Shown one piece after another: positions 9,063-54,228 of a stretch of DNA of 64,000 bases (position 1 is its first letter; each line of letters starts with the position of its first letter). The notes below the pieces were generated by a model, which had not been told where the DNA came from, did not search any database, and worked only from the letters and a program-made list of their open reading frames with translations. The DNA comes from Polytrichum commune (taxonomy: Eukaryota > Streptophyta > Polytrichopsida > Polytrichales > Polytrichaceae). A program made the position numbers and the translations under genes. The stretch spans positions 62,501-126,500 of the forward strand of contig OX485805.1 of the NCBI GenBank assembly GCA_950295325.1. The letters run 5' to 3'.

Positions 9063-9250
9063 GCGGTCGCTGTCGCCGCCTTGGCCTTCTTCGCCTTCAC
9101 CCTGGCCTTCCTCGCGTTTGCTGTCGCCGCCTTGGCCTTCCTCGCCTTCGCCCTGGCCTTCCTCGCCCTGGCCCTGGCCTTCCTCGCCTTCGCTGTCGCC
9201 GCCTTGGCAATCCTCGCCTTCGCCCTTGGCCTTCCTCGTCGTCGCATTCG
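9063..9250. repeat. GC-rich GCCTTCCTCGCC minisatellite in hAT 5' region
   Basis: Units such as GTCGCCGCCTTGGCCTTCCT and CGCCCTGGCCTTCCTC are repeated in tandem. The corresponding block in the right copy (54229-54467) is about 51 bp longer. Long frames run through it on both strands because the unit length and composition avoid stops; they are not evidence of extra genes. Confidence 0.7.
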
Positions 9251-9253
9251 AAG

Positions 9254-14151: not shown

Positions 14152-14575
14152 TTCACATAGAATTATTTACAATGGAAACTTATTTAGGGGGTTTTTCACA
14201 CTTCTTAGAGCATTCAAATTTCAGAGTAGAAGCAACTTATTGACTCCAAAGATATACGCCAATTCACATGGCTAAATGGCAATGTATGCCTATTATGAAT
14301 GAAGAAGTGTTTTCCTCCTATATTTTTTGTGTGTCATGGTTTCAATTTCGCATAATACATGCTACATTTCATCCATGAAATAGTTCCATTGAATTGTGTT
14401 TTTTTTTGCACATAGCTGAATTTCTCCCGCCCTTTCAATGTTATATCGCATGTGTAATGATTTGCTCACATGGAAATATAGTGCCAAATGAAACTAAACC
14501 CTCCCTCTTATTCGCAAAATATTATACTGAAATATATGCCCAAATAGGCTCCAACACGTCATTCACATTCAATAA

Positions 14576-14640
14576 AATAGTTACTTCATCTCCAAGGTAA
14601 AAGTGAAAAATTGTTACTTCACCTCCAAGGTAAAAGTGAA
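14576..14640 (+). repeat. 3' subterminal 31-bp repeats of hAT, two copies
   Basis: Two tandem units of the form GTTACTTCA(C/T)CTCCAAGGTA plus AAAGTGAAAA lie just inside the 3' terminus. The right copy has four such units. Subterminal repeats are usual binding sites for hAT transposases; that role here is inferred from position. Confidence 0.7.
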
Positions 14641-14653
14641 AAAAAATTCGGTG

Positions 14654-17200: not shown

Positions 17201-18320
17201 TTATGTTTTTCTCATAATACATAACATCCAATATATTGCGTATAAGGAGGCCATATTGTACCAAAATATATCATATTAACTCTAGATGCATACCAAATAC
17301 AAGATGACAAAATTTCACATGATGTTACAATATATATGACCCCTTATGACTATACAACTACACAGAGATATTTGCTTTCATAATCATTACATATATAAAT
17401 ATTGGAATATTAGCATGACTACAACTAGACATGTTTCATTATTTGCGATAGTCATGTTCAATTACTTCCAATAATCATGATCTAGATTTACTTTGACACT
17501 GACACTAGAAAATTATTTACTATAAAATAAGTAATATTCAACTAGGACTTATAAGATATGACCAATAATTACAATATAAGTTTACATATTACACCTTCCA
17601 ATACGGTAATGCAAAGAGGGAATTCTTCCTCTTCACTCCATATTAGATTTAGTTTGTCTTCTTCTTTCTTGTAGGTTGACTATACCGAGCAATCTTCTCT
17701 TTGTGTTGCAAAACGCAAAATGTCATGCGGAAGCAAGACCTGCAAGGGTGCTTGGTGCTTGACCCTATTCATCAAGGCTAATTTTCAGTCATCTATAACA
17801 CTATATTCGTTAAATTGAGACTTTCTCTAGTCTCAAATTAATATATGGATCAAACAACATGAAGATGCCTGAAACTATATTGTCAACAATCTCAAATATA
17901 TTAAATGTTCTAATATCCCACACCTATGATGTGCGGACATAAGCACATATGGTAGAGCACTCAACACCAATTTCATCAACAAAAACACATTGGGTAGAGC
18001 ACTCCAAACAAGTTTCACCCAAAAATATATATAATGATTTCTATTATTAGCATGCTCCATAGAATATAGACATTGCAACATACAAAGTGCATGTAATAAA
18101 TGCATATTTTTTCAATGGACAATTTAGTCCCAAACTTAATAAAAAAATGAACTTCACATTTGTATTGAAATATAGTAAATGGATATTCATCCAACTCCAA
18201 AACAATATAGTATTCGTAAGTTCTACCCAAACTCTGCCCCAATTTTGAAGAGCACACATATGAGTAATATATGTTCGTAGAATTACTGTTTACACTATAA
18301 TCATGCTAACACAATCCTAC
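17201..18320. other. AT-rich spacer, no gene seen
   Basis: AT-rich sequence with only short frames; possibly the rest of the decayed CACTA element, but no motif supports that. Confidence 0.35.
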
Positions 18321-18327
18321 CAACTTC

Positions 18328-21300
18328 TCATTCAACGTGGGTTGCTTCTTCTGCGATCTGAGCAAGGTTGTCTTTTGCAAAAGTTATGTACTTTTGAGGG
18401 ATGGACACTGATCCACTATGATTTTTCCGTGGTTTCCATGCTATGAATATGGAATCTGTATCTACCCAAGATGGACCGTGCTCAGAATCCACCTTCCACC
18501 GAAAGTTAGGGTTTGTATCCCAGCCTGTATAATGCCGAATCACATCTTCATTCCTTGCCGTCGGTCGGTAGTACTCCACTTGTATTTGTCGAAAATGAGG
18601 GCTGGAAGTTACAAAATTGGGTTTGGATAAAGCTCTTGCCACCCACACTGGCTTCACATATGTCTCATCTCCAGGACGCAAAATGAGCATATATCCTTCA
18701 TGACAATCCACTGCAATGCGGAAAGATGGTGGCGGACGACTACTAGCAGGCCCCACGTAATGGTCGTCCACATCAAACTCCTCTCGAACCTCTCCATTTC
18801 CCAAAAGACTAGCCTCTGAAGCTTGTACATCGACTCGTGTTTGTGGCCAAAATCCATGCCTCAAAGTATGAGGGCTATCTTGGTGGAGGTCTACCAAGGC
18901 GGCACGAACACGTGTCCAATAATGTATCCAACTCCCATAACGATGCCAACATGATCCGCCAACATCCGCTATCTTCAAACTCTCCCAATATTGTATGAAG
19001 CCTGATATACCTTTCAAAATATCCTCCAAATTCTTCATGGCTATTGGCTTACAAGGGCTAGGCTCCCCATCCGGTAACATGGTCTTCCCATCCGCATCCA
19101 CGCGCCACACAAGAAGACCCTCCGGCGGGCTCCAGTCTTGTGTCGTGCACAACAACTTGTATTGCATGGCCGGGACACCATCGTCACGCATGTAGAACCG
19201 GAATTGTTGTGCCTTCGTATGCCCGATCAATCGGTGAGCTCCACTTCGAATATAAGGTTCTATAAATGCCTTGAAGTCTGGCACCTCCTCAATCATATGG
19301 GGGATGACGGGAACGTTCTCCAAATCCATGTACGACTTCATCAATAATGGGATTGTAGGAAAATCCTCCTCCCGCAACTTCATGCTCCACCGCCCAAAAG
19401 ATGCATCAATATCATCGTGCGTGTGGCCTACCAATAGGAAGGACACAAAAACCTCCTTGAAAATGCCTTTCGCAACCAACAACGACCAATATGCAAATAC
19501 ATATCTGCTTTTATTGTCCTTGGCACAATTGTCCAATTGGACACGCAAAGTTGGAGGCAACTTCTTGGCAATCACGGGTTCATTGGGTGGCTCGGGCAAC
19601 GAATGCAAGCATACATCTTTTCCATCCAACACCGCTTCATATAAAGGTGTTGAACCCGTGTTCTCAAATAACAATCCTGAAGAATAGGCTGGTGGTTTCT
19701 CTAAATCACGTAAAAGCCTTGCAAATGATCCTATCGTGTGGTTTGAATCCGCTGGATACAAATCAAGAGCATAATGAGCAAACTTGACATCACCGTGTCC
19801 ATGTGCAATCATTCCTGCAATGCCAACCCAACGTGATTAGCATCTATGTATGAATAAACCATTATGAAGGAATCCATGTTCTCCAGTACATCACGGAATA
19901 AAAAACCACAACATTTAGGGTATGTCATGACATTGTTTCGAAGTTCACCTGTAACCGATATAGGCAACTTAAAAAACCCATCCGTGGCCTTGATTCGATT
20001 TGCAAAACATGGGGAGGCTATTTTGGCATGGTCCATTTTGTCATGGATGACCGTAAGAACCTCCAAGGGCCTGGAGATGGACAAAGCTCTATTTGTGTAG
20101 TAATCATTACGGTGTGCCTCTTGCATGTTTACGTGCTTGAAATAGTTCAATTGATGCGCTGCATATGACTTGGTACCCATCGTGTGTGCATCCCGGAGGC
20201 GCTTCAACTTCTCGCAATTAGAGCACCTGGCAAATTTGTCCCCTCGTCTTTTTGTAATGTATTCGCTAAAGTTTTGTTTCTTGATTGCACTTAATTTTGA
20301 CAATGAAATTGGCTCCAACCCAATCTTCTCGCCAACTGCATTAACGTCCAACAATATGTCTTTCCATTTTGTGCCTGTGGGAAGAACTTTCTCCACAACC
20401 TTTTCACCGGTTGTGAGTGTGCGTGTTTTGTGCGGCATTGCATCAGCAAGGGGGACAATGATGGTTGCTAGAGTTGCCGTTGCTTGCCTTGTTGCTTCCC
20501 TAGGTTTCTTTAAACCCACGTTCCCATGGTGACGGGACCGGCGGCCTTCCTTGGCATAAGCAGCTTGTCTATAGAAGTCCGCCTTCGACACACCGTAAAT
20601 GGTGTACCATGCCTTACAACACACGTCTATGCTTTCAATGGTGATTACCTTGCGACCCGTCCCATTCACATGTATTGCCCTATGGACATCAAGTTTTTTT
20701 GTGGATCTTAGACGAAAATCTCCAAGCCACATTTCTTCACGGATGGCCTTCAATTTATCCCTTGGAAACAATTGGCAACAACAATGCACACAACAATCCT
20801 TTGTGGCAACTTCTCTTATGGACTCCTCCCCAAGCAGCCTTTGACGTTTACAATCAGTTGCAGATGGAGAAGGACGTGCCACAGTATCGTACTTTCTTTG
20901 ACCCTTGCGTGGCCGCATGTTTGATTGCATTTCCTTTTCGAGTTGCATGTGTCGTTGCTCATGTTCACGCAAGCTAACTCCATCAGTCGTGACATTCCTC
21001 AATGGCCACCTGCGGAGGGAGAACCTATGAGTGGGATCCACCTCAGAAGGAACGAGTGACTCCAATATGACAATCCCAACGTCCTCGGTGCCAAGCGGAT
21101 TTTGATCAATGCAATCTTGTGGATGGGTGTTACGACAGATACCCTCCGCCACAACAACCCCATTGTCATTAAGAAGTAACACATCCAAATTCACCCATGA
21201 AGCTCTTGAAAGCACGGCACACTCTGGAATGGGACAGTCCAGTACGGAACGCGAAGGTATATCGAAATGCTCTTCATCTGAACTCTCATCCATAGTAGCC

Positions 21301-21452
21301 TCCCCGACAATGTCTAGCTCTTCCTCAGATGCAGATGGCCAAGTGGCCATGTCTTCTCCAGACGAATACCCTCTTCCAGTATACCCATCCATTTTGCCTA
21401 CACACATGAACATGGAACCTTGTAAAGAATTGACAAAAGCTATAGGGTCCAA
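18328..21452 (-). CDS. DUF7869-type protein, two exons, about 996 aa
   Basis: Exon 1 (21452-19949) ends ...KLPISVTG at a strong donor (ACAG|GTGAAC). A 134-nt intron ends TTGCAG, and exon 2 (19814-18328) continues MIAHGHGDVKFAHY in matching phase, so the apparent overlap of two frames at 19809-19812 is simply a retained intron. Residues about 594-642 contain VQLDNCAKDNKSRYVF and SFLLVGHTHDDIDASFGRW, the hallmark of the DUF7869 family: conserved Asp-Asn and His-Thr-His-Asp-Asp-Ile-Asp residues that look like a metal-dependent RNase-H-like core. Exon 1 has Cys clusters (CCVHCCC near 222; CSNC near 414) that may bind zinc. Function is unknown; a recombinase-like role is inference. The first Met is uncertain because a splice-acceptor-like TGTGTAG|G precedes MDGYTG. 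The gene is intact, with TGA stop. Confidence 0.7.
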
Positions 21453-21579
21453 TAGAAAAACACAGAAACCTTATCATAACACATGTTGTATGAATATTAT
21501 ATCGATGGGTTCCAAAAAGATGGAGCGCACAACAGTTTATTCAGGATCCGTCTATGCACATCCCCATTGTGTGCATGAG

Positions 21580-22535
21580 GGTGGGTTTGGGTCGAGCAAC
21601 CCAAACCTCGTGATAGGATGGGCCTGCTAATCCAGGCCCAACCCGTGACAGGGGTGGGTTTGGGTCGCTCGACCCAAACCTCACAATGGAGGTGGGTTTG
21701 GGTCGCTCGACCCAAACCTCACAATGGAGGTGTGTTTGGGTCGAGCGACTCAAACCTCGTGACAGGATGGGCCTGGTAATCCAGACCCAGCCCTTGCTAG
21801 GGGTGGGTTTGGGTCGCTCGACCCAAACCTCGTGACAGGATGGGCCTGGTAATCCAGACCCAGCCCTTGATAGGGGTGGGTTTGGGTCGCTCGACCCAAA
21901 CCTCGTGACAGGATGGGCCTGCTAATCCAGGCCCAACCCCTGACAGGGGTGGGTTTGGGTCGCTCGCCCCAAACCTCACAATGGAGGTGTGTTTGGGTCG
22001 TGCGACCCAAACCTCATGACAGGATGGGCCTGGCAATCCAGGCCCAGCGCGTGATAGCGGTGGGTTTGGGTCGCTCGACCCAAACCTCATAATGGAGGTG
22101 GGTTTGGGTCGAGCGACCCAAACCTCGTGACAGGATGGGCCTGCTAATCCAGGCCCAACCCGTGACAGGGGTGGGTTTGGGTCGCTCGACCCAAACCTCA
22201 CAATGGAGGTGTGTTTGGGTCGAGCGACCCAAACCTCGTGACAGGATGGGCCTGCTAATCCAGGCCCAACCCGTGACAGGGGTGGGTTTGGGTCGCTCGA
22301 CCCAAACCTCACAATGGAGGTGTGTTTGGGTCGAGCGACCCAAACCTCGTTACAGGATGGGCCTGCTAATCCAGGCCCAACCCGTGAGAGGGGGTGGGTT
22401 TGGGTCGAGCGACCCAAACCTCGTGACAGGATGGGCTTGCTAATCCAGGCCCAGCCCGTGATAGGGGTGGGTTTGGGTCGCTCGACCCAAACCTCACTAT
22501 GGGGGTGGGTTTGGGTCGAGCGACCCAAACATTCC
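21580..22535. repeat. Hairpin satellite built on TTTGGGTCG-NN-CGACCCAAA palindromes
   Basis: About 17 copies of the palindrome TTTGGGTCG(CT or AG)CGACCCAAA lie in tandem. They alternate with two spacers: ACCTCACAATGGAGGTG, and a second inverted repeat TGGGCCTG-CTAATC-CAGGCCCA. The higher-order unit is about 111 bp. Substitutions mostly fall outside the arms (exceptions near 21597, 21745 and 21971). Frames on both strands are products of the repeat. The array begins about 130 bp upstream of the DUF7869-type gene start. Confidence 0.9.
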
Positions 22536-22559
22536 GCAAATTCCGCCTTAAATTGCGGT

Positions 22560-23225
22560 AATCTTCCATATTCAGCTACGTGGATACTAATTGGAAGAAT
22601 TCAGGCCGTGCATGGCTGTTGTAATTAGCTACTCATCAACGGATGCATACACGAACCTTGCACTCCACCACTACTTGAGAGAGCTTGCAACCATTTCAGA
22701 ATGGAGAGATGAGAAAAAAGGAGCAAAGTTTGGGGGGTTTGGTACTTTATACTACCCGCCTCCGCCTTGGCCTTCCTCTTTGGATCCCTTTCCCGCCCGA
22801 ACGTAAACCCTAAACCTAAGTTCAAACCTTCTGACAGAATTTCCCGCTTCTTGTTGGTAATAGAGCATCCATATTTAGCTTGCCTCTTCGTGGCGCCAAC
22901 CATCAAATGACCTTGGACAACTAACCTCCTAATTCCGCTATTAAATAACTACACAAAATATGATGTGTGGATTTGATTATATGTAGTGTTGTTACCACCA
23001 GTGTCCGAAAAGTTTTTGAAGTTATTGAGGTTAATTGCCTACCTCTTTAAAAGGGCATAGGCTATTTCCCTCATGGCATAGGTTGCATCCTACAATATCA
23101 AATTTTTGTAAGTTGAAAACCTTTTGAGTTTTTAAGTTACCTGCCAATTGCCTTTAAAACTAATTTTTAGTAGGTTAAAATCCTTCATATCTTTTAATGT
23201 TGTAGGCTTTAAATTCAAAATTTGA
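22560..23225. other. Spacer, no gene recognised
   Basis: A 93-codon minus-strand frame (22906-22625) has Lys/Arg-rich composition but no family resemblance and no splice context. It is not called as a gene. Confidence 0.3.
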
Positions 23226-23227
23226 GT

Positions 23228-23300
23228 ACTAAGTGGTATCCTTGGCAGGAATTGAACCTGGCTAAGCCCTTCACCACGTTTGAAGGCCAAGGATTAACCA
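23228..23300 (-). repeat. tRNA-like SINE head
   Basis: Read on the minus strand, the stretch contains GGTTCAATTCC (a B-box / T-arm), an anticodon-arm-like CCTTCA...TGAAGG hairpin and an A-box-like AGTTGGTTAATCC. The acceptor stem does not pair and the anticodon loop lacks the usual T33, so it is not a working tRNA. A tRNA-derived SINE or tRNA pseudogene fits better. The related block 23030-23760 (repeated phrases with ATAGGCT and TAGGC) may be its body. Confidence 0.35.
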
Positions 23301-24401
23301 ACTCCTTTTTAAAGAGTTGATTATAAGTTATGAAAGGTTGCTAAAATTCAAATGAGTTTAAGGGTGAAAGTCCTCACCATCTTCTGATTCAACCTCTATG
23401 CGGTGATGGGGCTTGGGCTGTGGTATTTGTAAAGATCGACGGGGAGGGAGTCAGGGCTATTATTGATATCCGCCTATGTGCCACTCAAGAGCCCCGAGTA
23501 TTAGCCTAAAGATATGTACTTAGGCCAACTAATTTCCCAATTTGAAGAAGGATGAATGGCTAAAATCCGCTCTTTTAAAAACTTTGTAGGCAAAATTTCC
23601 TACATGTTTTTTACCACATAGGTTGATATCCTATGTTTTAAAATTGTCCATAGGCTCTTTGTCCTACACTTTCAAAATTTTATAGGCTAAGTCACAAATT
23701 TTGTAGGCTGCATTTACACTAGCCTTAGGCTCTTGGCGGACTATGGTTACCACCCTTACATGCTCAACATTAATTTTCAATCCTATGACAGTTAGTGTTA
23801 GAAGTAAATGTGTTGCTACCTTCTACTCTCACGTATATTTCTTCTTTTCACATCCTTACTAACACTAAATTCAAACATGTCAATGCCACATATTACTATA
23901 GCTTATATTTAATGTTTATTACTTTCATATGGTTATTGATATATTGTGTATTCACTTGTATTTAGTGTATCAAACACTAAATATCATACTTATTGTAGTT
24001 GTGTTTTGTACCTATAGTTTTTATTGATTTGGCTTGCCAAAAAAAATGTAATCAACTTTATTTGTTTTAACAAATGTTTGATGAAAAATCTAAACATATA
24101 TAGTTGTATCTATTCAATGCAAGTTGAGCAGAACATGTCCTTAAATACATGTTGGTGTGTTCTAGTGTCACTACACTAAATAAGATATTTAGAGATTTAT
24201 ACACTAAATATGAACGCATCTACGACGTAACATAACATACATAACAAACATAACATGAAATGTAACCAACGTTCATGTTCATGAATTAGACTATTGTGAT
24301 ATCTATATACATTTGTTTTTAGAACCACAAGCGACTTGGCCCCCTCATTTGACCTATGCGCCATTCATTTATGGCTTCGAGTGCAACAAGACACATTTAT
24401 A

Positions 24402-24436
24402 TACCCTAAACCCTAAACCCTACACCCTACACCCTC
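24402..24436 (+). repeat. Short interstitial CCCTAAA run
   Basis: Two CCCTAAA units followed by CCCTACACCCTACACCCT lie directly left of the MITE at 24459. This is plant-type telomere-like sequence but far too short to be a telomere. Confidence 0.5.
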
Positions 24437-24458
24437 GTAGTTGTTCAGGGTTGCTTCC

Positions 24459-25017
24459 CACGGGTAGGTCACTTAGTGCATTTTAAAAACGACGTGCGGC
24501 ATAATATAGAGAGGATTGAAATCATTTGAAATAAAAATTATAAAGGAATTCCAAATAATGAAGGGGCCATTAAATGTAGACAATCCCATTATAAGTAAGT
24601 TAGATGGACATAAAATGTGGGCCATTATTTTTTTGTAAAATTAATATAGGGGCTGAAGATAAGGTTCCTAGAAGGTATGTTTAGTATAATGTTTGCTATG
24701 GTCTCCTATGTGTTTTCTTCATAACTTTGTTTGCAATGATATTATTGTTTGCACCCTTCTTTGTTTCCATGGTTTCCCTTAACAGGAAGTAGATTAGCTT
24801 TTATTACTTAAAAGGAATATAGAGTACAAAAAATTGCAGTGACTTGGACAATATAAGTAATGGAAGGGTGCAAACAAATGGGCCATTTTTGAAATTCAAG
24901 TAATTATAGGGAGGCTTTAATTCAACCCTTGAAGGTAAATAGCCCCAAAACAAAAAACCCTGAGCCGCACATGGTGCACAAAAATGCCTTAGAGTGACCT
25001 ACCCGTGTGGCTTCCAT
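24459..25017. mobile_element. hAT-like MITE, 559 bp
   Basis: The ends are CACGGGTAGGTCACT and AGTGACCTACCCGTG, and the inverted similarity continues inward for about 45 bp to GTGCGGC. Flanks are TTGCTTCC (24451-24458) and TGGCTTCC (25018-25025), an 8-bp duplication with one mismatch. No coding capacity. The CACGGG(T/G)(A/G)GGTCAC terminus is shared with the 3060-bp element at 5282-8341, so both may be mobilised by one unseen transposase. Confidence 0.7.
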
Positions 25018-25025
25018 ATAGAACA

Positions 25026-25870
25026 CCATCTACTGTAATTTGTGCCTCATTTCCTAATAAGATATGTTGTTTAATATATGTGGAGGGATCATCCAACAAC
25101 AAAGTGATTGCTTAAATGGCTTCATATAATGTTGAACTCCACATATTAGTATTTGATAGCTTCATATTTGTATACATGGTGCTTCTCTCATTTACTATCA
25201 CTATATTCAATATTTGTAGACTTTATCTTGTCTCAACTAAATATATGAACAACAACAACATTGTCTAATGTTTGGGTCGTCCTACCTAAACCATCTTCAT
25301 ATGAGTTCTTAATTGGGTTCTTCAGCAAAAACACCCGCTTCAATATATTTGTATCTCATAAATATGTAAACTTGTAAATAAGTATGTTAATGTTCCATCA
25401 TGCTATAAATCAAACAACATCTTTGTTGCTTTTCGCAAACAACAATGATATTAAGTTGTCAACACTTAATATTGCATAATTCCATATTATAATGAATGAC
25501 ACTACATAAACTTGTATAATTAGATTTAGTTCAATGGTATGTGTTAACGGATCCATCGTAGGCTATAGCATTGTCCTTTACCAACAACCTTCATAGATAA
25601 TTACAATATATAACTCGAAACCATTCATTGTGTAAATGGTTACCATAGTTATATTATTCCATTATGTAATTGCCTACGAGGATTGCAATATAATTATTAA
25701 ATACTCCTCTTAGTCTAGTATCTATCATTCTCGATTCATGCATATGTGTAGATTACTAAAATTACAAAACCAATACAGTTTCATTATTTGATATTAGCAA
25801 ATCCATCGGGGGACCATTAAATTAAAAACCTTAGGCTATAAAGGTTTTTTAGTATCCTCAAGGATGGTAT
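25026..25870. other. AT-rich spacer, no gene seen
   Basis: No protein-like segment. One degenerate copy of the window's palindrome (GTTTGGGTCGTCCTACCTAAA) is present near 25271. Confidence 0.4.
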
Positions 25871-25879
25871 GGGATAGGT

Positions 25880-26310
25880 GGCTAAAGGATACCCACCTGC
25901 GAGGCCTATCGACCGTCGATGGGCCTGGGGCTCTCCAATGGCTCAGATTGTGTATTCGTTTGGGCCATGGAGCGCCCCGTGACACGTGGCGGCCATGAGC
26001 CGAACGGACACGAAAGGCGCCGGCCCGAATGGGTCCCGCCCTTGAGTGACCTTCCCCCTTTCACTCTCCCCTCCGCACTTTCTCCTTCTCTCTCCTCCGC
26101 TCCAAGCTCCTCCTCCTTTGTACGTTCCTCATACTTTCTGGAGGCGCCGCCGCTCTTGAAAGCGCCGCCTCCTCCCTTGCATTCTCTCTCTCCTTGTCGA
26201 ACTCGCATTCCCTCTCTCCTTCCCTCTTCATCATTATCTCATTCTCTCTTTCACTCCTCTTCTTCTTTTGATCTATTTTGTTGTTCATTGAGTGCGCATT
26301 GACCGAGTTC
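25880..26310 (+). promoter_or_regulatory. CT-rich leader-like region upstream of the ParB/methyltransferase locus
   Basis: After an abrupt shift from AT-rich DNA, the sequence becomes GC-richer and then strongly pyrimidine-rich on the plus strand (26040-26280, runs of CTC/TCC). Such pyrimidine patches are common near plant transcription starts and in 5' leaders. The downstream locus is in the same orientation. No TATA box could be assigned with confidence, and a promoter role is inference. Confidence 0.3.
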
Positions 26311-26555
26311 TGAGTGTAGTATGAGTTTAGGGTTTGTTTTTGTATTAAAGTCTATACATTTTAGCCATTTCAGAACGTCTTTGTTGTTTTGGAGTGTGAG
26401 TGTTGTTTCAAAGTGGTTGTGTCAGTTCCTCCTGGTCTTAGAAACATTCATGTGTGAGTGTAGAGTGATTTCGGAATTAGAATGATTGTTCGAAAATCAG
26501 GATGCATGTGTGGCCTTCAGATAGCTTCTTTGTTCATGTTTGTAAACACTTGTTA

Positions 26556-26712
26556 CATTCAGAGTGAATGTTTGTGAGGGATTGTTTAATTCTGAGTGAA
26601 TGTTTGTGAGGGATTGTTAATTCTGAGTGAATGTTTGTGAGGGATTGTTTAATTCTGAGTGAATGTTTGTGAAAGCTTCTTCAATTCAGAGTGAATGTTT
26701 GTGAGGCGTTCT
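26556..26712 (+). repeat. Five tandem 32-bp units, GAGTGAATGTTTGTGAGG
   Basis: Units reading (ATTC)(T/A)GAGTGAATGTTTGTGAGGGATTGTTTA repeat five times, the last two diverged. They lie between the CT-rich leader-like region and the first recognised exon, so they may be in a leader intron. Confidence 0.75.
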
Positions 26713-26987
26713 TAGTTTTCTGATATCCAATCCTTTCTAGAATCAGCTTCCAAGACTAGCTTGTTAGAACTGCTTCCAACAGCAGCTTGTTGTGTAGTTT
26801 GCAAAGCAAGGTGATTTCTTCAACTTCTTTATGTGTGTCAATTTCTTTAGAGTTTCGCAGCATCTACAATGCATAAGCATTGTATATGCTGCGTAAACAC
26901 ATTATAAAGGTCTCTGGAATCAAAAGTGTTTCGAGAGACGACCCAAACTTCAGTTTGAAACCCTAAAACACTAAACTCTGCAGCTGG

Positions 26988-27678
26988 TTTGGGTAGAGCG
27001 ACCCAAACTCTCCAGCTGGTTTGGATCGTTCGACCCAAACTCTAAAGATGGTTTGGGTCGTTCGACCCAAACTAGCAGATGCTCTGGGTCGTGGGCGCCA
27101 ATCCATCTGCAGAGTTTGGGTCGCTCGACCCAAACCATAAGCATTGTTTGGGTCTAGGGTTTAGCCAAACTCCGCATCAAATGTTCATTTATAATTAATT
27201 TAATCATCATCTTGGGTGAATATCTAACCCTATCGACCCAATCCATCTGCAGAGTTTGGGTCGTTCGACCCAAACAGCGCATGAAATGGTAATTCATAAT
27301 TTAGGTAATCATCATCTTGGGTATGATCTAAGGCCATAGCCGATCATCCATACCGCTACAAAGTTTGGGTCGAACGACCCAAACTTTGCGTAAATTTTTA
27401 CTGCTTACGAACAATACTTACACTTATAAACAACAACTCAAACACCCAAGCAATAATGAAATGACCCACAACTAGAACAGTAGCTCGTGATGATTGTTGT
27501 ATCCATGAACTTAAAGATTGGTTTTCGTAGCCAAATAATATATTATTCATTAGCCATTGTAGGCACAGGTTTGGGTCGTTCGACCCAAACCTGTGAAAAG
27601 TAACCCCATATATAAATGTTACTAAACCCAGACATAAGCCTATATGATTTGAAAGAGTTTGGGTCGCCCGACCGAAAC
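26988..27678. repeat. Palindrome cluster upstream of the ParB/methyltransferase start
   Basis: Copies with arms TTTGGGTCG and CGACCCAAA lie at 26988-27007, 27019-27040, 27051-27072, 27114-27135, 27254-27275, 27363-27384, 27569-27590 and 27657-27678 (some with one or two arm mismatches). The central dinucleotide varies (AG, TT, CT, AA). Flanking sequence between copies is not repeated, so these are dispersed copies, not a tandem array. Confidence 0.85.
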
Positions 27679-27702
27679 TAACATATGTATTTCTACTTGC
27701 AG

Positions 27703-30700
27703 ATGCCCCCCAAGAAAAGACCTGGAGAACGATGGTTCAAGCCGGCACCAGACGCGATCTGGCAGGAGCACGAAACTCCTAAAAACCAATCCTACGTAGC
27801 AAAAGAAGACCTTGTAATTGCATGGTCCTTTCTTGTAGTAAAGGCAGCTCAATTCAAAATCCTCCTTGTTTTGAAGGTTGGCACGGAGGAGCAACACACA
27901 TGGGATGCTTTGACGGGATGGGAGGTGGCATCAGTTCATGCTCTAGGAGAGCACGTTGACGTCATCCTGGAAAACTCTTCTCTGGAAAATGTGCACATGT
28001 TCATGCATGAGCAAGCCGAGCCATTCGATCCGGTATACGTGAAGGAATCCTGCGCTGAGCCAGACATTGTTAAACCGGATACAATCTTCATAGATGCGAT
28101 CATTTCAAACACGAAGGTTGCAACCAGGTTCACTAAACTTAAGCAGGCAATCAACGCAATAAACAAGACCCAGCAAAGCAAGTCAAAATCTCAACAAGCT
28201 GTGAGGCGCAAGGCGACTGCTGAAGAGGGCGCAGGGTCGTCAAGACCTCAAACAGTGAGGAAGCCCCGACCGGTTCCAGCTGACTCGAGGAGAACAACAC
28301 CTACGGCAACTCCTGCTGATAGTGAAACACCGACGCCATCACAAAGCCGGCAGACGACACCATCTAAGAGGCCGAGAGAGTCAGTATCTGCCATGACAGA
28401 TGAGCCTGTTTCACCGGAGCTACGTATGCCCAAGCCCGGGGAAGGAGTGGAGCCATCGGAGATCCAGAAAATACTCAACAATTTTGACACCAAGTGTTTA
28501 CATTGTTTTTTCATGGGCAGAGAATTCAAGTTTGATGTCAACATCGCACAATGCCACCTAGCGCCACCAGAGAAGTGCGTTCGGGCAAAGGAAGATGCGT
28601 ATGTTGATTGGTTAATCGCCCAGATGGTGAGCGACTAGTTTAAACATGATAGGCAGACTATTGTTGTCATGCCTCAGGGACACAAAAGAATGCCTACACC
28701 GGATATGTGGCCTTCTATAGAGAAAGGCGATTTTTGGCTGATTGACGGTCAGCACAGTGTTGAAGCTTCAAAGAAACTTCAACTGATGACGGAGTGGAAT
28801 GATCCTAATGGTCTAAAGGAAAAATTGAAGGTATGGAAGGCATTGGTCGTGTGGTCGGACGACGAAACCCGGCTGAGCGATATCTCCCGCTATTTCAACA
28901 TGAATAACAAGAAGCGGGCATATCAAGCTTCTTGGATTAGGAACATCATGGCATCGCGGGATGTGTGGGAGTTCTACGGCCGGCCTCCCAAGGAAAGGGA
29001 GAATGCAAAAGACAAGAATCCAAAGTGGGAGGTGAGCATTGTTTCTCAAACAGAGTTTGGGTCGCTTGACCCAAACTTTGGGTTTCTTCATACAGTTTGG
29101 GTTGCTCGACCCAAACTTTGCGTTTCTTCATACAGTTTGGGTCGCTCGACCCAAACCTTGTGTTTCTTCATACAGTTTGGGTCGCTCGACCCAAACCTTG
29201 TGTTTTAGTTTGTGTTTGTCTACGCAGTTTGTTGTTCATCATTTTTCTTCTTTGTTTGGAAACAACATATTGAGAATTAACACGCATTCTATGCTCTTGT
29301 GCAGCTTTTCAAATACCAAATGATAAACAAGTTCTCCTCAATTGACAATTCAAGTCACAAGCAAAAGAAGTACAATGAGCTAAGAGGAGAGATCTACTTG
29401 ATTACATCATCCGACATGGTTTGGCAGAAGTGGAAGACAGTGTTTGAGAAACACGAGACAGGGGATCTCATGGATCCTGACACATGCAACCTCTTCAACT
29501 CGTCCTCTCGATTCAAGGCGATGAAGCCTCTCATGAGAGAATTCTTTAGAAGTCTGCAGGGTCTTTCGGAGGCGGAAATGGGGAAGGCGGCAACGCACAT
29601 CTTGCACAACAACCCGACCCCTAAGAGATTTTGGGTGTAGCCCAAAATAGTCTTCACCAAGCCGAAATCCTTTGTTCCTTCATGCTACACAATGAAGGAA
29701 TGGGCGGAGAATAGGAAGAAGAAAACAACGATCGTCCAGGAGCTGCAGAAGCTAATCCCGGAAAAGAACATTTTTGTCGATGACGAGGTGAACGAGGTGA
29801 ACTGGAGAGCGTTCAAGGCTGAATACAACTTCACCAGTGCATCCATGGCAGCTCTGATCAGGGAGGCAGGAGAAGACTTCCTAAAGTCAAAACTGGTGAA
29901 GGGTGGGAAGAACCTGGTTCTTCCAGAACACTCGACGCGTGCCTTCTCAAACTTTATAAAGGAGAAGAAGATTGTAAGTTTTGAGGGGGATGCGCATTTC
30001 AACCTTGTCGCTTTTGACCCTATTAAAATCCAGGGATGGCCCGGCCTTGATTCCAGGAAAGAAATACGAGTAAAAGCAGCGGACCGGTTCCCCTTTGGTA
30101 TAATAGACTTCCGGAGCATTCCTGGGAGTACGTTTGAGGGCACAATGGGTACACCCTTCTACGAGCCCTTCATGTCGAAGTTCGTGGAGTATGCAAGCCC
30201 TAAGCTTAGGGAGGTCGATATGTGGCTGTGGATAGTAGAGGATAGGAGAGCAGAGCAGGTGTATGAAATTGTGAGGAAATTGCAGCCTGAGTATGCGGTG
30301 TCTAAGTCTCACTACATTGCTGCACCGGCGGAGGGGGTGTACACGACACTAAAGGACAAGAAAACCAAAGTCATGAATTTGTTGTGCTTGTACTTTGTGT
30401 TCAAAGCAACCTTGCTAAAGGTGGAGAACCACCCCATAACCCGGATGCAGAAACTATTCCAAGTTCCAGAAGGCCTGGGCGCAAGTAAGTCCCTCTACGA
30501 CGAGGCAAAATATGCCATATACCATTCGGACGAGTTGCGGATGGAATTCTATCTCCGAATAATGAGGGCCTTGACGAGAAGAGGGGACTGTATATTCAAC
30601 GTCTTCGGCGGCACCAAGCCCGTCTTCGCTGGCATGGTAAGCTCCTTACCATAATTGTTTTCATAGTTTGGGTCGAGCGACCCAAACTAACACCGATGCT

Positions 30701-32325
30701 AGTTTGGGTCGCTCGACCCAAACTATAACCTTTGCAATTGATATTAGGTCTTGTATGTACTTCCCCTTTTCGGTGGAATCACATGTTATGCCATATAATA
30801 ACATCTGGTGGGATTTCTGCAGATGCTGGGGCTGAACGTGTACAGCTATGTAGACCTTAATGACATCCAATTCTACAAGGCCCAAAAATCATTGGCGAAG
30901 AAGATGGATATACTAGACTGGATCCCTGGGAGCTACGCCGAGGAGACTGTTGAAGGGGGTGAGAGCCCGCTGGATAAGGCGAGGCGTGTCAACCCTGAAG
31001 AATTGGCCATAAAGGTTCCAGTTGCTGTACCAGAGCCTCTGGTCCAAGTGCATCCAGGCACATCCTCTTGGCGACCGCGTGACGAGGAGGAGGAGGAGGA
31101 TGAGGAGGTGGAAGAGGAGGAAGAAGAGGCTAAAGTGGAGGGCGAGGTCGAAGAAGGGGGAACAGGCTTCACTCAAGAATCTGAAGCCCCTCAACGAAAG
31201 AAGGCAATGCGGGTAGCAACTCCACAAAGTAAGTTGGTGCCCGTCCTGACGGTTGATGATGCCCGCGACATGTACTCCAGGGATGCGACTGCCGCGTTCA
31301 GGGAGAGGAGGAAACTAAAAGGCAAGAAACTCTATGGCGACTATGCCATCGAGGAGACAATTGCCATTAGCAGCGAAGACGAGGACGACATGGAGCTCGC
31401 GAAACGGCTCAGGTCGGACCCTCCCTCTCCAGGTGCCTTCGCAGGGATGGTGAAGGTGAAGCCGGAAGTCCTCACCGTGCAAGAAGCCAACGAGAAGATG
31501 TTAAGGGACGAAGAACAACGCGTCCGCTTGCAAAAGGCCGCTGCTGAAGAACCCTCAGTGCGGAACGAAGTGGCAGAGCTAAGGGCTCTCTTATTGGAGC
31601 AAGAGCGACTGCGGGCATTGGCGCAACCTCCAACTAGTGCGGACTTGATCACGCAAGTGATTCGAGGCATGTGGGCGCAGGGTTTGGTGGTGGCTCCCCC
31701 GGGCTCATTTCCACACTTGCCCCCCGGCTTCCCTCCCCAGAACATTCCTCCGCAGCCCGTGCCACAATCCTCCTTCAGCTTTCAGCACATGGTTCCCCCC
31801 CACGTCCGTCCGTATCCGCCGGTTCAACAAGCGGATGACCCCAATATATGGCGCCTTCCCGGGTCTTCTAGACCTGTGACCCCCCCACCACTTCGGCCGC
31901 CCCTGGTGATCCCCCCGCCCCATCAGCAGGACGACCCCCACATGTTTGGGTCGTCCGACCCAAACCCGCCCCCCCTTACAGTGCAACAAGGCCAATCTCA
32001 TGATGCACGAGAGTTTGGGTCGGCCGACCCAAACCCCGTTACCGCTCAGTCTTCAATGGACCAGCATGGGTCTGAAAGAGACACACCCATGCCTGATGTT
32101 GAAGGTCCTCGAGGGCCTGGTGATACCTCTACTCCTATCCCAATCGATGAACCTATGCATGATGCACATGCGGAGGTTGGGTTAGGAGAAGGTCCTGACA
32201 CTGAGCGCTTGCAGGAGAGGGGTGCTGACATCGTCGGAGAAGGCGGTGGCAAGAGAGAACGACAAGCGGAGGCGGTGGAGGCTTCCATGGCGTCCAGGCA
32301 TGACCAGGGAGAGGTAATACACTGA
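27703..32325 (+). CDS. ParB-like / DNA-methyltransferase-like protein, interrupted by two in-frame TAG codons
   Basis: Exons 27703-29031, 29305-30636 and 30823-32325 join by GT-AG introns, all phase 0, into 1387 codons. Two TAG codons interrupt the frame (28636-28638, codon 312; 29638-29640, codon 555), yet the protein reads on coherently through both. Residues about 323-430 (GDFWLIDGQHSVEASKKL, then VVWSDDETRLSDI) match the ParB/Srx-type DGQH fold. Residues about 660-930 follow the order of a class-beta N4/N6 DNA methyltransferase: the position of the catalytic D/S-PPY motif reads IDFRS (711-714), then GDCIFNVFGGTKPVFAGM (motif I-like FxGxG region) across intron 2. The missing PPY suggests lost catalysis. 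The C-terminus has acidic, coiled and Pro-rich parts. ParB-methylase fusions are known in phages and bacteria; the plant role is unknown. It may be a pseudogene or use stop readthrough. Confidence 0.5.
28636..28638 (+). other. In-frame TAG, codon 312 of ParB/methyltransferase frame
   Basis: The codon lies between ...AQMVSD and FKHDRQTIVV, with protein-like sequence on both sides in the same frame. An intron removing it would have to be only about 30-50 nt (GTGAGC at 28627 to CAG), which is shorter than plant introns normally are. Confidence 0.7.
29055..29196. repeat. Four palindromes in intron 1 of the ParB/methyltransferase gene
   Basis: Copies at 29055-29076, 29095-29116, 29135-29156 and 29175-29196 are spaced exactly 40 bp apart, with the spacer TTTGYGTTTCTTCATACA between them. 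Unlike the dispersed copies nearby this is a short tandem array. It starts 23 bp inside the intron. Confidence 0.85.
29638..29640 (+). other. In-frame TAG, codon 555 of ParB/methyltransferase frame
   Basis: The codon lies between ...TPKRFWV and PKIVFTKPKS in one uninterrupted frame. Both TAG codons could arise from CAG by a single C-to-T change. Confidence 0.7.
30666..30723. repeat. Two palindromes in intron 2 of the ParB/methyltransferase gene
   Basis: Perfect copies at 30666-30687 (centre AG) and 30702-30723 (centre CT) lie 14 bp apart, just after the donor at 30637. Confidence 0.85.
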
Positions 32326-32357
32326 GACCTCCTCAGTTTGGGTCGCTCGACCCAAAC
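31944..32357. repeat. Palindromes inside the last exon and the following intron
   Basis: Copies at 31944-31965 (centre TC) and 32013-32034 (centre GG) are inside the open frame and are translated as FGSSDPNP and FGSADPNP. A third at 32336-32357 follows the stop or, if spliced at 32313, lies at the start of the intron. Confidence 0.85.
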
Positions 32358-32803
32358 TCCTGGTCTATTGTCTTGTTGCCGTGGTCGTGTCCCCCCTAGC
32401 TAGGAGGAACTGCCCCCACCCCGTCCATCCGCTCTCGCATCCCTTCAGCCCCCCCCCCCCGACGATCACTAACGTCGCCCGTCCCACGATTTTACTCGAA
32501 CTTGGAGGCGTGCACACAATTTTGTAGATGTTGAATTAGGATAGTTTGAACGGATCGTTCAACGCGGCTTCGCACCCCTAGGCATTTTGTACATAGAGCA
32601 TTGCAAACAATAAAATTATTATTTTGTGCCCTTATGTTTGTTTTCGTGTTCAAATGTATATTTTTTCCTCTTGCCCCCTCTTGCATTTGTATGGCCGCCT
32701 ATGCATAGTGGTTCTTGTATTTTTCACAGAAAATATTGTATTCACTTTAAGTGGACATAGCATGACATAGTCTTCCCCCGCCTTATGTCGCTCGTCTCCA
32801 CAG

Positions 32804-33616
32804 GGATCGGAGCATAGCGTCGCGGCTCCCCGCCGGGCCTCTCCAAGAAGCGAGGAAGGTAGCGCGATGGTCCCCCCCATTTTACCCGTTCCACCTTTGC
32901 CGCCTAAGACCCGGTTCCTGGTGTTAGACCTCAACGGGGTCCTCGTCCAATGCGTTCATTGCCCGAGGACACCCACGGTGGCCTTTTGCAAACCCGAGGA
33001 CGCGAATTACGACGGGCCGCCCACGTTCATAAAGAGCAAGCTAGTTCACCTCCGCCCGTGGCTTCGGACCTTCCTCCAGATCGCCCAACAACGATGGTGG
33101 GTGGTCGTGTGGAGCTCCATGAAGGCCGAGAACACCAATGCAGTCGTGGAGTTCATCTTCAAGGGCATCGAGCCCCCCTGCATGGTCCTAGCACAGGAAG
33201 CCTGTAGAATATTGTACACACCGGACGGCAAAGTCGTCAAAAAACCAAACAACCCCGCTTCCCCCCAATACCTCAAGGTCTTGAAGCCCATTTTTTGGGA
33301 CCAGCGTCCGTCATTGATAGGTGTCCCCTACGACGTCCGTCCCACCCGGGAGAACACGCTCATGGTGGACGACAGCGCCGCAAAGAACATGTTGAACCCG
33401 ACGGCCAACTTAATAGTTTGCCCTACGTGGACGGTCGAGAAGGTCCGGGACCGATTTTTGTTAGACCTTAGTAAATACCTCCAGGCGCTCAGGGGAAGCG
33501 GACTACCTGTAAACAATTTTGTTAGGAATAATCCGATAGGCGAGAGATACTTGGATCCACGAGACCATTTGTACAGAGAGTTGTTCTCTCACGCGAAATT
33601 TAACAAGCTCATTTGA
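32804..33616 (+). CDS. FCP1/NIF-type (HAD) phosphatase domain, possibly the 3' part of the upstream gene
   Basis: From Met at 32867 the frame encodes 249 residues. FLVLDLNGVL (residues 18-26) is the HAD nucleophile motif in the D-x-N-G form seen in plant NLI-interacting-factor-like proteins. VVWSSMKAEN is the second motif and LMVDDSAAKN the acidic third motif. FCP1/NIF enzymes dephosphorylate phospho-Ser, classically in the RNA polymerase II CTD; the substrate here is unknown. The frame is open upstream to a splice acceptor (CTCCACAG|GGATCGG at 32804, phase 0). A donor GAG|GTAATA at 32313, also phase 0, closes the methyltransferase exon, so the two may be one protein. A phase-0 donor CCT|GTAAAC at 33508 could also splice onward to 33758. 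Otherwise the frame ends at TGA 33616. Confidence 0.65.
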   Translation, partial: GSEHSVAAPRRASPRSEEGSAMVPPILPVPPLPPKTRFLVLDLNGVLVQCVHCPRTPTVAFCKPEDANYDGPPTFIKSKLVHLRPWLRTFLQIAQQRWWVVVWSSMKAENTNAVVEFIFKGIEPPCMVLAQEACRILYTPDGKVVKKPNNPASPQYLKVLKPIFWDQRPSLIGVPYDVRPTRENTLMVDDSAAKNMLNPTANLIVCPTWTVEKVRDRFLLDLSKYLQALRGSGLPVNNFVRNNPIGERYLDPRDHLYRELFSHAKFNKLI

Positions 33617-33625
33617 GGCAGCACG

Positions 33626-33650
33626 TGTGTGTGTGTGTGTGTGTGTGTAT
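33626..33650 (+). repeat. (GT)n microsatellite
   Basis: About eleven GT dinucleotides follow the phosphatase stop. Confidence 0.9.
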
Positions 33651-33757
33651 GCGCCCGCCCACTTTGTGTAATATATGCTTCATATGTATCTTGATTTTCA
33701 CGCGCTCTAGCAAACCCTCTTCCTTTGGGTTTTGTTTCGTTTCCTTTTTTGCGCCAG

Positions 33758-34547
33758 CGTTTGGAGCCCTCGATTGACATCGTCAGCGAGTCAGAGTTGG
33801 GGAGCTTCTTCTACGAGACCGTTTACGACGCCGCGTCAACCATTGACTACTCCAAGGAGCCTATTGACGCCGGCGTCGTCGATAGCCCCCCACCCAAGCA
33901 AATCTTACGGCGATCTCCGTCCCCGTCGCCGCTCAAGGGCATAAATCGCAAATGCGTCCGGACATCCCCCTCTCCGCCCGGCGGAAGTATTACACCTCAA
34001 CGGCGGCTGCGGATGGACGCACGGCCAACGAAGAGTGGAGCCCTTCCTATTCCTTTGCGGGACGCCTTGCCCCTCCTTGCCAACTCCGATGGGAACGCCC
34101 CCGGTGACAAGGTGAACCCCCCCCCCCTCTAAAACATGGTTAACCGCGCGTTACAATCATTTTGCACTTAAAAAATGATCGTGTGACACGTTTGGGTCTT
34201 CCTCCCTAAACTAACACATGTGGTCTTGCAATGACGCGTTGCAGGTTGCTCCCACCCGTAAACCTATGCGGTCTAGTGCGTCCATCGAGTTCGAGCGTAT
34301 GTACGCCATGACCAGAAATGCGAGACAATCCACTTCATCGTATTCGAATTCTTCGACGTATATTTCGGGCGGCCGACGGACTCCAAAATGTCTTATGGAT
34401 GGCGGTCACCCCAAGAATGGCTATAGTCGCGGGGCGGAGATTTTCAGGAATGTTGAAGCAATGCGAGCAAAAGAAGCCGCAGCAAAAGAAAAAGAGGCAA
34501 AAGATAAAAAAGCAAAAGAAAAAGAGGCAATCTCCGAGGCTAGATAG
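33758..34547 (+). CDS. Basic, Ser/Pro-rich tail, two exons, probably 3' exons of the same locus
   Basis: Exons 33758-34111 and 34245-34547 are bounded by GCGCCAG|CGTTTG, ACAAG|GTGAAC and GTTGCAG|GTTGCT, all phase 0, and end at TAG. No ATG opens the first exon near its acceptor, so it is likely downstream coding sequence rather than a separate gene. It contains an acidic stretch (SESELGSFFYETVYDA), Ser-Pro repeats (RRSPSPSPLKG; TSPSPPGG) and a Lys/Glu/Ala-rich helix at the end (AKEKEAKDKKAKEKEA). No family is recognised. The shared phase-0 junctions suggest continuation of the phosphatase-containing gene. Confidence 0.45.
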
Positions 34548-34659
34548 GCCATAGTAGGCGTAGGGTTTTGGGCCATAGGCAACATCATTTTGGGTCGCAC
34601 TATCCAATGTATGTGTGGTGTTAGCATGCTATGCATTTTACATGCCATACTTTGTATGT

Positions 34660-34960
34660 TTTTTTTGCAATAATATAAGTGTCACATGATTTCCCCTTCA
34701 ATATGGTCCAAGGTTTGGATTGCCCTAACTAAACCATCACAAATATGAGTTTGGAATATTTTGTATGTTATATTATATTGGTTCACATAGTTCCCCTTCA
34801 ATATGGTCTAAGGGTTTGGAGTGCCCTACCTAAAACATATTCATACAAGATCTCATATTTTGTGTGCGATAATATGAATGTTTTAAGATTTCCCCTTCAA
34901 TTTGGCCTAAGGTTTGGATTGCGCATCCTAAACAATCCCAAATATGAGTTATTAATGGGG
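34660..34960 (+). repeat. Three 95-110 bp tandem units with decayed palindrome
   Basis: The phrases TTCCCCTTCAATATGG, AAGGTTTGGATTGCCCTAAC and TAAACCATC...AAATATGAG repeat three times. The core GGTTTGGATTGCCCTAACTA resembles a decayed form of the window's palindrome. Confidence 0.6.
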
Positions 34961-35740
34961 TTCTTGTTCTAAATACCCGACACAAAGTGTTCGCATCTTA
35001 CAACTTTCTCCAATATGTGTTCCATTTATCCTTGTTCTTATTTATGTGAATGTCTCAAAATGCCCAAAAAGTCTCAATTTAACGAATATAGTGTTCTATA
35101 TGAATGGTGCATTCTCAAATAACGACGATGACCAAGATAAACATTTTTTCCCAAAGACTTGGACCTCCTCGTTGACACATTTGGCCCACATGGGGGGGGA
35201 ACCTCTATACCCCTTTGCGACTTACTTGGCAAGCAATCCATAAGCTAGAAAGTCATGAATGCTCCACATAAGAATCACTTGAAGCTTGAAATATGGGTTT
35301 TGCTTATTTTTATCTACTATATACATTATTTCGCCTTCTCCAATAGTGATTCATCAATTGCCTTCACCTCTTTTCACAGCCTTTTTAGTTCCTCAATGTG
35401 TGGTACTAAGTATACGTGTATATTTTCCTCTTTAACATTATCTTTGTCGAGAATGATGAAGGAGAGCATCATAAAAAATTGTTTGGTAATCAACCATGGT
35501 GGTAAATTATAGTTTAGCAATACAATTGGCCATATAGAATGACTTAAGGATTGGTGATATTTCTAAATTATTTGCCACAGGACACTAGTGTATGTGAATC
35601 ATTGTGCACTCGGTTTATTAGTGGAAGTGAAACCTTCTATGTTGTGGTTGTAAATTGTCCTCAATTTGTGTATATGCTACAATCTGCTAAATGCTCAATG
35701 CTTATACGCTCAATTTGTCAAGAATAATATGTGTCTGAAC
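34961..35740. other. AT-rich spacer, no gene seen
   Basis: Only short frames; no exon of ATG7's N-terminal domain could be recognised here. Confidence 0.4.
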
Positions 35741-47519: not shown

Positions 47520-48400
47520 GGTGCGCGACAACTTGGGGCTCCAATTTCTACACTCGGGGCTTGAAGTGCTACAACTGGGGCCGGAGTTGAGACACTTCCG
47601 GGCCCCAATTGTGGCACTTGGGGCCCGAAGTGCTACAACTGGGGCCCGAGTTGAGACACTTCGGGGCCCCAATTGTGGCACTTGGGGCTCCAATTTCTAC
47701 ACTCGGGGCTTGAAGTGCTACAACTGGGGCCGGAGTTGAGACACTTCCGGGCCCCAATTGTGGCACTTGGGGCCCCAATTTCTACACTCGGGGCCCGAAG
47801 TGCTACAACTGGGGCCCTAGTTGAGACACTTCAGGGCCCCAGTTGTAGCACTAGGGGCCCCCATTTCTACACTCGGGGCCCGAAGTGCTACAACTGGGGC
47901 CCGAGTTGAGACACTTCGGGGCCCCTGTTGTAGCATTTGGGGCCCCAATTTCTACTCTCGGGGCCGGAAGTGCTACAACTGGGGCCCGAGTTGAGACACT
48001 TTGTGGCCCCAGTTGTAGCACTTGGGGCCCGAATTTCTACACTCGGGGCCCGAAGTGCTATAACTTGGGCCCTAGTTGAGACACTTCGGGGCCCCAATTT
48101 CTACACTTGGGCCTGAAGTGCTACAACTGGGGCCCGAGTTGAGACACTTAGGGGCCCCAATTGTAGCACTTCGGGCCCCAATTTCTACACTCGGGGCCCG
48201 AAGTGCCGCAACTGGGGCCCCAGTTCAGACACTTCGGGGCCCCAGTCGTAGCACTTGGGGCCCCAATTTCTACACTCGGGGCCCGAAGTGCTACAACTGG
48301 GGCCCCAGTTCAGACACTTCGGGGCCCCAATTTCTACACTCGGGGTCCGAAGTGCTACAACTGGGGCCAATGTTGAGACACTTCGGGGCCTCAATTTTTG
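47520..48400. repeat. GGGGCCC-punctuated satellite
   Basis: The palindrome GGGGCCC(C) recurs every 18-22 bp, separated by a small set of spacers: AATTTCTACACTC, GAAGTGCTACAACT, GAGTTGAGACACTT and AATTGT(G/A)GCACTT. Their order forms a loose higher-order repeat of about 75-110 bp. Frames on both strands are by-products of the array. Confidence 0.85.
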
Positions 48401-48717: not shown

Positions 48718-48850
48718 TCACTTTTACCTTGGAGGTGAAGTAACTATTTTTCACTTTTACCTTGGAAGTGAAGTAACTATTTTCACTTTTACCTTGGAGG
48801 TGAAGTAACAATTTTTCACTTTTACCTTGGAGATGAAGTAACTATTTTAT
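48718..48850 (-). repeat. 3' subterminal 31-bp repeats of hAT, four copies
   Basis: Four tandem units of CACTTTTACCTTGGAGGTGA plus AGTAACTATTTT lie just inside the 3' terminus, against two in the left copy. Confidence 0.8.
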
Positions 48851-49270
48851 TGAATGTGAATGACGTGTTGGAGCCTATTTGGGCATATATTTCAGTATAA
48901 TATTTTGCGAATAAGAGGGAGGGTTTAGTTTCATTTGGCACTATATTTCCATGTGAGCAAATCATTACACATGCGATATAACATTGAAAGGGCGGGAGAA
49001 ATTCAGCTATGTGCAAAAAAAAACACAATTCAATGGAACTATTTCATGGATGAAATGTAGCATGTATTATGCGAAATTGAAACCATGACACACAAAAAAT
49101 ATAGGAGGAAAACACTTCTTCATTCATAATAGGCATACATTGCCATTTAGCCATGTGAATTGGCGTATATCTTTGGAGTCAATAAGTTGCTTCTACTCTG
49201 AAATTTGAATGCTCTAAGAAGTGTGAAAAACCCCCTAAATAAGTTTCCATTGTAAATAATTCTATGTGAA

Positions 49271-54225: not shown

Positions 54226-54228
54226 CTT

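Follow-up and report, generated by a model that had tools for sequence, protein, structure and literature searches.

A multicopy terminal inverted repeat transposon of Polytrichum commune with family-specific palindromes and a ParB-like accessory gene

The locus studied here lies in a 64,000-nucleotide stretch of the moss Polytrichum commune (contig OX485805.1, positions 62,501 to 126,500; hereafter the window). It is one of many copies of a terminal inverted repeat (TIR) DNA transposon with two genes on opposite strands, a candidate transposase gene and a ParB-like accessory gene whose predicted product also carries methyltransferase-like and FCP1/NIF-type phosphatase domains. The element, its ends, its copies and its domain content are established by sequence. 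We find that the element is filled with one 10-2-10 bp palindrome and that a related family carries a different palindrome at matching places. We consider it moderately probable that the accessory protein binds the palindromes of its own family and keeps the element's promoters expressed against silencing. A sequence-only reading had proposed a six-exon gene at 27703..34547, a span that covers about 40% of the real unit at 17797-35095.

The element and its copies

We set the window against 30-kb stretches around six further copies (C1a, C1b, C3, C4, C6 and C7). Blocks shared with the window are mostly 98-99.8% identical, and in all six other copies they stop sharply on the right at 35095-35097. 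On the left, the match reaches the limit of the compared stretch in 5 of 6 copies, and the C3 copy, which lacks the left part, starts at window position 23958. The window, C4, C6, C1b and C7 all show the left end at 17797, and so does C1a, where the TIR is mutated. All six copies with the window palindrome (motif A, GTTTGGGTCG-NN-CGACCCAAAC) that were read on both sides have a 4-bp target site duplication, which is CTAT in the window and CCCA, CTTG, TTAC, GTGA or AAAT in the others; the AAAT duplication, read by eye, belongs to C1a, whose left TIR has one altered base. The Sola superfamily is defined by a 4-bp target duplication together with a Sola transposase, and the duplication of this element has that length. 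The genome searched comprises 408 Mb in 64 contigs. A PF03031 search gave at least 152 matches, presumed host genes included (150 of 965 candidates scored), and copy numbers taken from this list and from the list of ParB-exon matches are lower bounds.

The minus-strand gene encodes a DUF7869 protein. Its role as candidate transposase is suggested by its being the second of the element's two genes, by sequence conservation that includes invariant acidic positions (QLDN and GHTHDDID in the alignment), and by its location inside a TIR element. The A3 majority line KLPVSVTG-MIAHGHGD, inspected by eye, guided the placement of its intron (19948-19815). The protein has 241 homologues; among the 120 listed, those named by organism come from the mosses Ceratodon and Physcomitrium.

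Table 1. Coordinates of the transposon and its parts in the window
Feature	Positions	Strand	Remarks
TIR DNA transposon	17797..35095	.	17,299 bp; limits of homology in other copies
Target site duplication CTAT, left	17793..17796	+	
Left TIR, 28 bp	17797..17824	+	AACACTATATTCGTTAAATTGAGACTTT
Transposase candidate exon 2, DUF7869 (PF25273)	18331..19814	-	E 1.2e-42
Transposase candidate exon 1	19949..21470	-	open frame; start codon provisional
Tandem-repeat array of motif A palindromes	21585..22530	.	just upstream of transposase gene
Palindromes upstream of ParB-like gene	26987..27678	.	first, second and last with one mismatch
ParB-like gene exon 1	27703..29031	+	TAG at 28636-28638 in window copy
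Intron 1 palindromes	29055..29196	.	40-bp tandem units
ParB-like gene exon 2	29305..30636	+	TAG at 29638-29640 in window copy
Two intron 2 palindromes	30664..30725	.	
ParB-like gene exon 3	30823..32313	+	probable end of methyltransferase-like fold, then acidic and Pro-rich region
Two palindromes within exon 3 coding sequence	31944-31965, 32013-32034		
Intron 3 palindrome	32335..32358	.	
ParB-like gene exon 4, FCP1/NIF-type HAD	32804..33616	+	up to conserved stop
Putative exon 5, basic, Ser-Pro rich	33758..34111	+	42% likeness to family F261 over 86 aa; attachment provisional
Putative exon 6	34245..34547	+	43% likeness to family F261 over 68 aa; attachment and constraint provisional
Right TIR, 28 bp	35068..35095	-	exact inverse of left TIR
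Target site duplication CTAT, right	35096..35099	+	

The accessory gene and its predicted domains

The GT-AG junctions of the sequence-only reading (29031/29305, 30636/30823, 32313/32804, 33508/33758 and 34111/34245) are all present, by eye, and all in phase 0. Relatives back the first three links of the proposed six-exon chain, but 33508/33758 is doubtful. Exon 1 is an open frame of its own ending near ..PKWEV, with similar limits across 35 aligned relatives (74 database homologues), and so is exon 2, from ..FKYQM to ..FGG.K, across 30 (64 homologues); the start of exon 3 is alike in the related family F261 (..Q followed at the junction by MLGL). The exon 4 frame is conserved past 33508 up to a stop at 33616, preceded by ..FNKLI in the window and by ..LNKLI or ..YNKLI in the others. 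Because the frame is conserved up to that stop, a protein ending there appears to be at least one main form. In-frame TAG stops, which the sequence-only reading does not mention, interrupt both exon 1 and exon 2 of the window copy. Exon 1 is open in copies C4, C7 and C1b and exon 2 in C1a and C1b, and 143 of 150 scored ParB-exon matches (89-100% identity) lack an internal stop.

We read the start of the phosphatase exon in loci of other families or subfamilies, leaving aside near-identical copies of the same family. A Met upstream of DLNxVL is absent in all five of these loci, so that exon 4 must be spliced on there, and a CAG acceptor lies just upstream. This argues against a pair of transcripts, one for a ParB-methyltransferase gene that stops at 32325 and another for a phosphatase gene of its own from ATG 32867. 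Such a pair would suit the window copy, which has that ATG and in which the exon 3 frame stops at 32325, but given the five Met-less frames with their acceptor we hold it to be very improbable. Relatives indicate that the three domains are encoded in one spliced gene. The suggestion of one plant protein with three domains is upheld to that extent, but the gene belongs to a transposon and is not a plant cellular gene.

All three proposed domains were recovered, ParB by predicted fold and weakly by sequence, the methyltransferase by predicted fold and the phosphatase by a PF03031 match at 32918-33496 (E 1e-15, 58.2 bits against a cut-off of 21.8; motif DLNGVL). In the structure model for exon 1 (m51801305f641, relative P0065), a PH/PTB-like region is predicted at ~27730-28182 and a fold of the ParB/Srx type at ~28495-28992. 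A helical region follows the ParB-type fold, at the place relevant to the helix-turn-helix of segregation-type ParB, and is barely covered by fold matches. The model for exon 2 (mf9a3003b19f2, relative P0001) predicts a helical part and then a degenerate beta-class methyltransferase fold from ~29974.

The characteristic motifs of these families are replaced. The phosphate-binding motif of the ParB-CTPase family bears an Arg; in its place, set by eye, we find DGQHS in 34 of 35 relatives and DGQYS in the other, and the Arg-bearing motif is absent from all 35. Beta-class methyltransferases have a DPPY-type motif IV and an FxGxG motif I at known places. None of the 30 aligned relatives has DPPY, DPPW or DPPF, and by eye all 30 have DFRxxP at the DPPY place and N(V/I)FGGxK at the FxGxG loop. 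The class-beta methyltransferase-like domain of the sequence-only reading, with FNVFGG in the motif I position, holds as a fold; the canonical motifs are replaced. These replacements also weigh against an active DNA methyltransferase that marks its own element with N4-methylcytosine or N6-methyladenine. This alternative would agree with the methylation that the accessible part of PMC12477816 predicts for algal transposon proteins with ParB and methyltransferase domains, and with the resemblance of the modeled fold to active enzymes, but we give it little credence. The DxDx motif I of FCP1/NIF phosphatases is likewise absent from the window and from loci L006, L007, L008 and L029, which have DLNGV under a search pattern that admitted either Asp or Asn.

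We estimated nonsynonymous (dN) and synonymous (dS) divergence by the Nei-Gojobori method for three pairs: F261 against family F257, the window against an 81% relative beside copy C3b, and the window against F261. Between F261 and F257, dS was saturated in exon 1, where dN was 0.11 and 0.03; exon 2 gave dN of 0.05 and 0.08 and dS of 1.5 and 1.1 (174 codons in the second case), and dN/dS was 0.19 for exon 3 and 0.14 for the HAD domain; exons 5 and 6, at 1.48 and 0.52 on very few changes, are too similar for judgement. The window and the 81% relative gave 0.16 for exon 3, 0.20 for HAD, 0.18 for exon 5 and, on few changes, 2.46 for exon 6. For the window and F261, dS was saturated in both transposase parts and in exons 1b and 2b, and HAD gave 0.40. 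These comparisons indicate that coding constraint acts on exons 1-4; constraint on exon 6 is not supported by dN/dS. Separately, L029 (F261) and L031 (F257) show saturated synonymous divergence in exon 1 but a value of 0.015 in exon 5, a drop that would fit a recent exchange of the 3′ end between families.

Palindromes that differ between families

Motif A accounts for 27 of the 29 palindromes in the element with arms of at least 9, 26 exactly and one with a mismatch; the other two lie at 22025-22046, within the tandem array, and at 29906-29924. None of the seven palindromes elsewhere in the window is motif A. Exact copies number 26 in the window element and 25-31 in five others; with a tolerance of 3 mismatches the count is 32-41 per element. 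Motif A is absent from 126 kb of flanks.

Family F261 was read in one copy, a contiguous 17 kb on C1 with the gene order of the window element. Its TIR differs at 3 of 28 bases on the left and 4 of 28 on the right, and in this copy an exact target duplication is absent (left ..AAAT, right TAAAT..). It has 21 cores of another palindrome, motif B (TTTACGAACG-NN-CGTTCGTAAA), 15 of them full exact copies, at places that match the window element, as set by comparison with open frames. Nine lie at the transposase gene or upstream of it and 7 upstream of the ParB-like gene; within the latter gene, intron 2 holds 2 and intron 1, exon 3 and intron 3 hold 1 each. The F257 locus also carries motif B, and the 81% relative has motif A three times. 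Motif B occurs 12 times in one flank; since this flank includes a second FCP1 match (C1:68342210), these copies probably belong to a neighbouring element of the other type. Altogether, gene order and most of the TIR are kept from one family to the next, but the palindrome is replaced. Among database relatives, for which only amino acids are available, a 10-2-10 palindrome is compatible with 47 of 71 intron tails, compared with 170 of 1420 shuffles, some of the 47 being ambiguous or likely chance. In P0012 and P0049 a single intron tail is compatible with GTTTCGGTCG as well as GTTTGGGTCG arms, and may represent a transition from one palindrome to another.

Two families share a host and nearly one TIR and differ in the palindrome at equal sites. 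The simplest explanation is that the element itself encodes the palindrome's reader, in a version that differs from family to family. Of the two proteins, the accessory one suits this role better, since it has diverged more between families than the transposase and has a ParB fold: identity is 59-65% for the transposase, 29-52% for accessory exon 1 and 34-44% for exon 2. The palindromes are probably its own predicted binding sites. Reading by the transposase, with the palindromes as internal or subterminal transposition sites and some other role for the ParB-like protein, has in its favour that the palindromes are densest immediately upstream of the transposase gene and that other transposons have subterminal sites for transposase or accessory proteins, such as those of TnpA in Spm. 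We regard it as unlikely, given the better conservation of the transposase, the near constancy of the TIR while the palindrome changes, and the position of the sites, which occupy the two promoters, introns and an exon and are not placed near the ends. A satellite-like sequence spread through tandem duplication, with no reader, would account for the tandem arrays and for 25-32 cores among near-identical elements. It seems a poor explanation for a second family that has the same sites and the same 10-2-10 CG-NN-CG layout in a different sequence, or for single palindromes in introns and exon 3 and arms that recur in relatives, and we would be surprised if it were correct.

Proposed function and related systems

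In the function that we favor, the accessory protein would bind the family-specific palindromes that flank and interrupt the element's genes, probably as a symmetric dimer. Once bound, and possibly spreading in the manner of ParB, it would keep the element's promoters expressed against host silencing, and RNA polymerase II is a possible target of the phosphatase domain. We infer from the features above the choice of the accessory protein over the transposase as reader, the dimeric binding, the anti-silencing or activation, nucleotide binding and phosphatase activity. An anti-silencing function is proposed because the sites are placed at promoters and introns as VANC repeats are, and because VirB, a ParB relative, is an anti-silencer. 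We suggest only tentatively, as a possibility with the odds against it, a eukaryotic counterpart of parS/ParB, in which a nucleotide-gated clamp loads at the palindromes, spreads, excludes silencing and brings a polymerase II phosphatase, and in which co-divergence of protein and palindrome yields families that do not cross-activate.

VANDALs are Mutator-like elements. A close likeness is to VANC of Arabidopsis VANDALs, with short motifs that change between families and form tandem repeats in introns of the element's genes and upstream of those genes, according to the accessible parts of PMC5735166 and PMC10398659. Introns of VANC21 and VANB21 carry VANC motifs, as does the sequence upstream of VANA21 (PMC5735166, in part), and family-specific arrays likewise occupy noncoding regions here. 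The VANC motif is the 9-base YAGTATTAY (same part of PMC5735166), whereas here it is a 10-2-10 palindrome, and the available portions of the two papers mention neither a ParB nor a methyltransferase fold. They demonstrate binding and demethylation for VANC; for the moss protein, binding and anti-silencing are proposed.

The parS palindromes are similar in size to those of the element. With ParB/parS, KorB, Noc and VirB the moss protein shares the ParB-type fold and palindromic DNA sites (PMC12704722, PMC10653881, as far as available); it differs in having DGQHS for the Arg-bearing motif, at most a putative helix-turn-helix in the helical region downstream, and a place in a eukaryotic transposon. 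VirB spreads on DNA and requires its CTP pocket, and is a bacterial case of anti-silencing (PMC10653881, in part). The available section of a ParB-fold survey lists methyltransferase fusions in phages and archaea, with sulfiredoxin as the commonest eukaryotic form (PMC12704722). A plant FCP1/NIF-like locus of the host, L002, belongs to the same HAD family and has DVNGLL, with Asn at the equal motif I position and 32% identity; it is presumed to be a host gene.

The nearest described element is Sola1-1_Ec32 of Ectocarpus, a 21.5-kb Sola1 element with a ParB-like and methyltransferase accessory gene opposite the transposase strand; similar green and red algal cases are cited, and Iyer 2011 and Petroll 2025 are among the references (PMC12477816, accessible part). 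Both are giant DNA transposons with a second gene opposite the transposase that encodes ParB-like and DNA methyltransferase domains. Set against that description, the moss element stands apart in its PH-like N-terminus, the replacement of its methyltransferase motifs, the fusion to an FCP1/NIF domain, its family-specific palindromes and a land-plant-type host. In the accessible portions of the literature searched, we found no FCP1 fusion, land-plant case or palindromes for ParB-methyltransferase transposon proteins. The sequence-only reading knew of no described plant protein of this kind, which, within the literature searched, holds for the FCP1 fusion and the land-plant host; ParB-methyltransferase accessory proteins are already described for algae. 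Its guess of a mobile or viral acquisition was correct as to mobile origin, since a multicopy TIR transposon carries the gene; viral origin is unsupported, and the exon 1 profile has no relative among IMG/VR contigs.

The element is a candidate silencing-escape system built on a bacterial ParB fold and independent of VANC, the best-known plant case. Two clearly different palindromes in one genome, with more arms inferred in relatives, make protein-DNA co-divergence directly testable, and the ParB-methyltransferase accessory proteins of algal transposons are given a testable role.

Additionally, we observed repeats around this and other copies. A 5.6-kb stretch occurs twice in the window, inverted and 98.6% identical (9063-14642 and 48780-54395), flanking the transposon on both sides. 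A further dense tandem array of GGGGCCC-type repeats at 47527-48397 is possibly part of another element. ParB-exon matches at G000:C3:10603569, 10687344 and 10771186 are spaced by ~83.8 kb, and two HAD matches on C3 (10620739 and 10704571) are spaced alike, which suggests tandem duplication of an 84-kb unit containing such elements.
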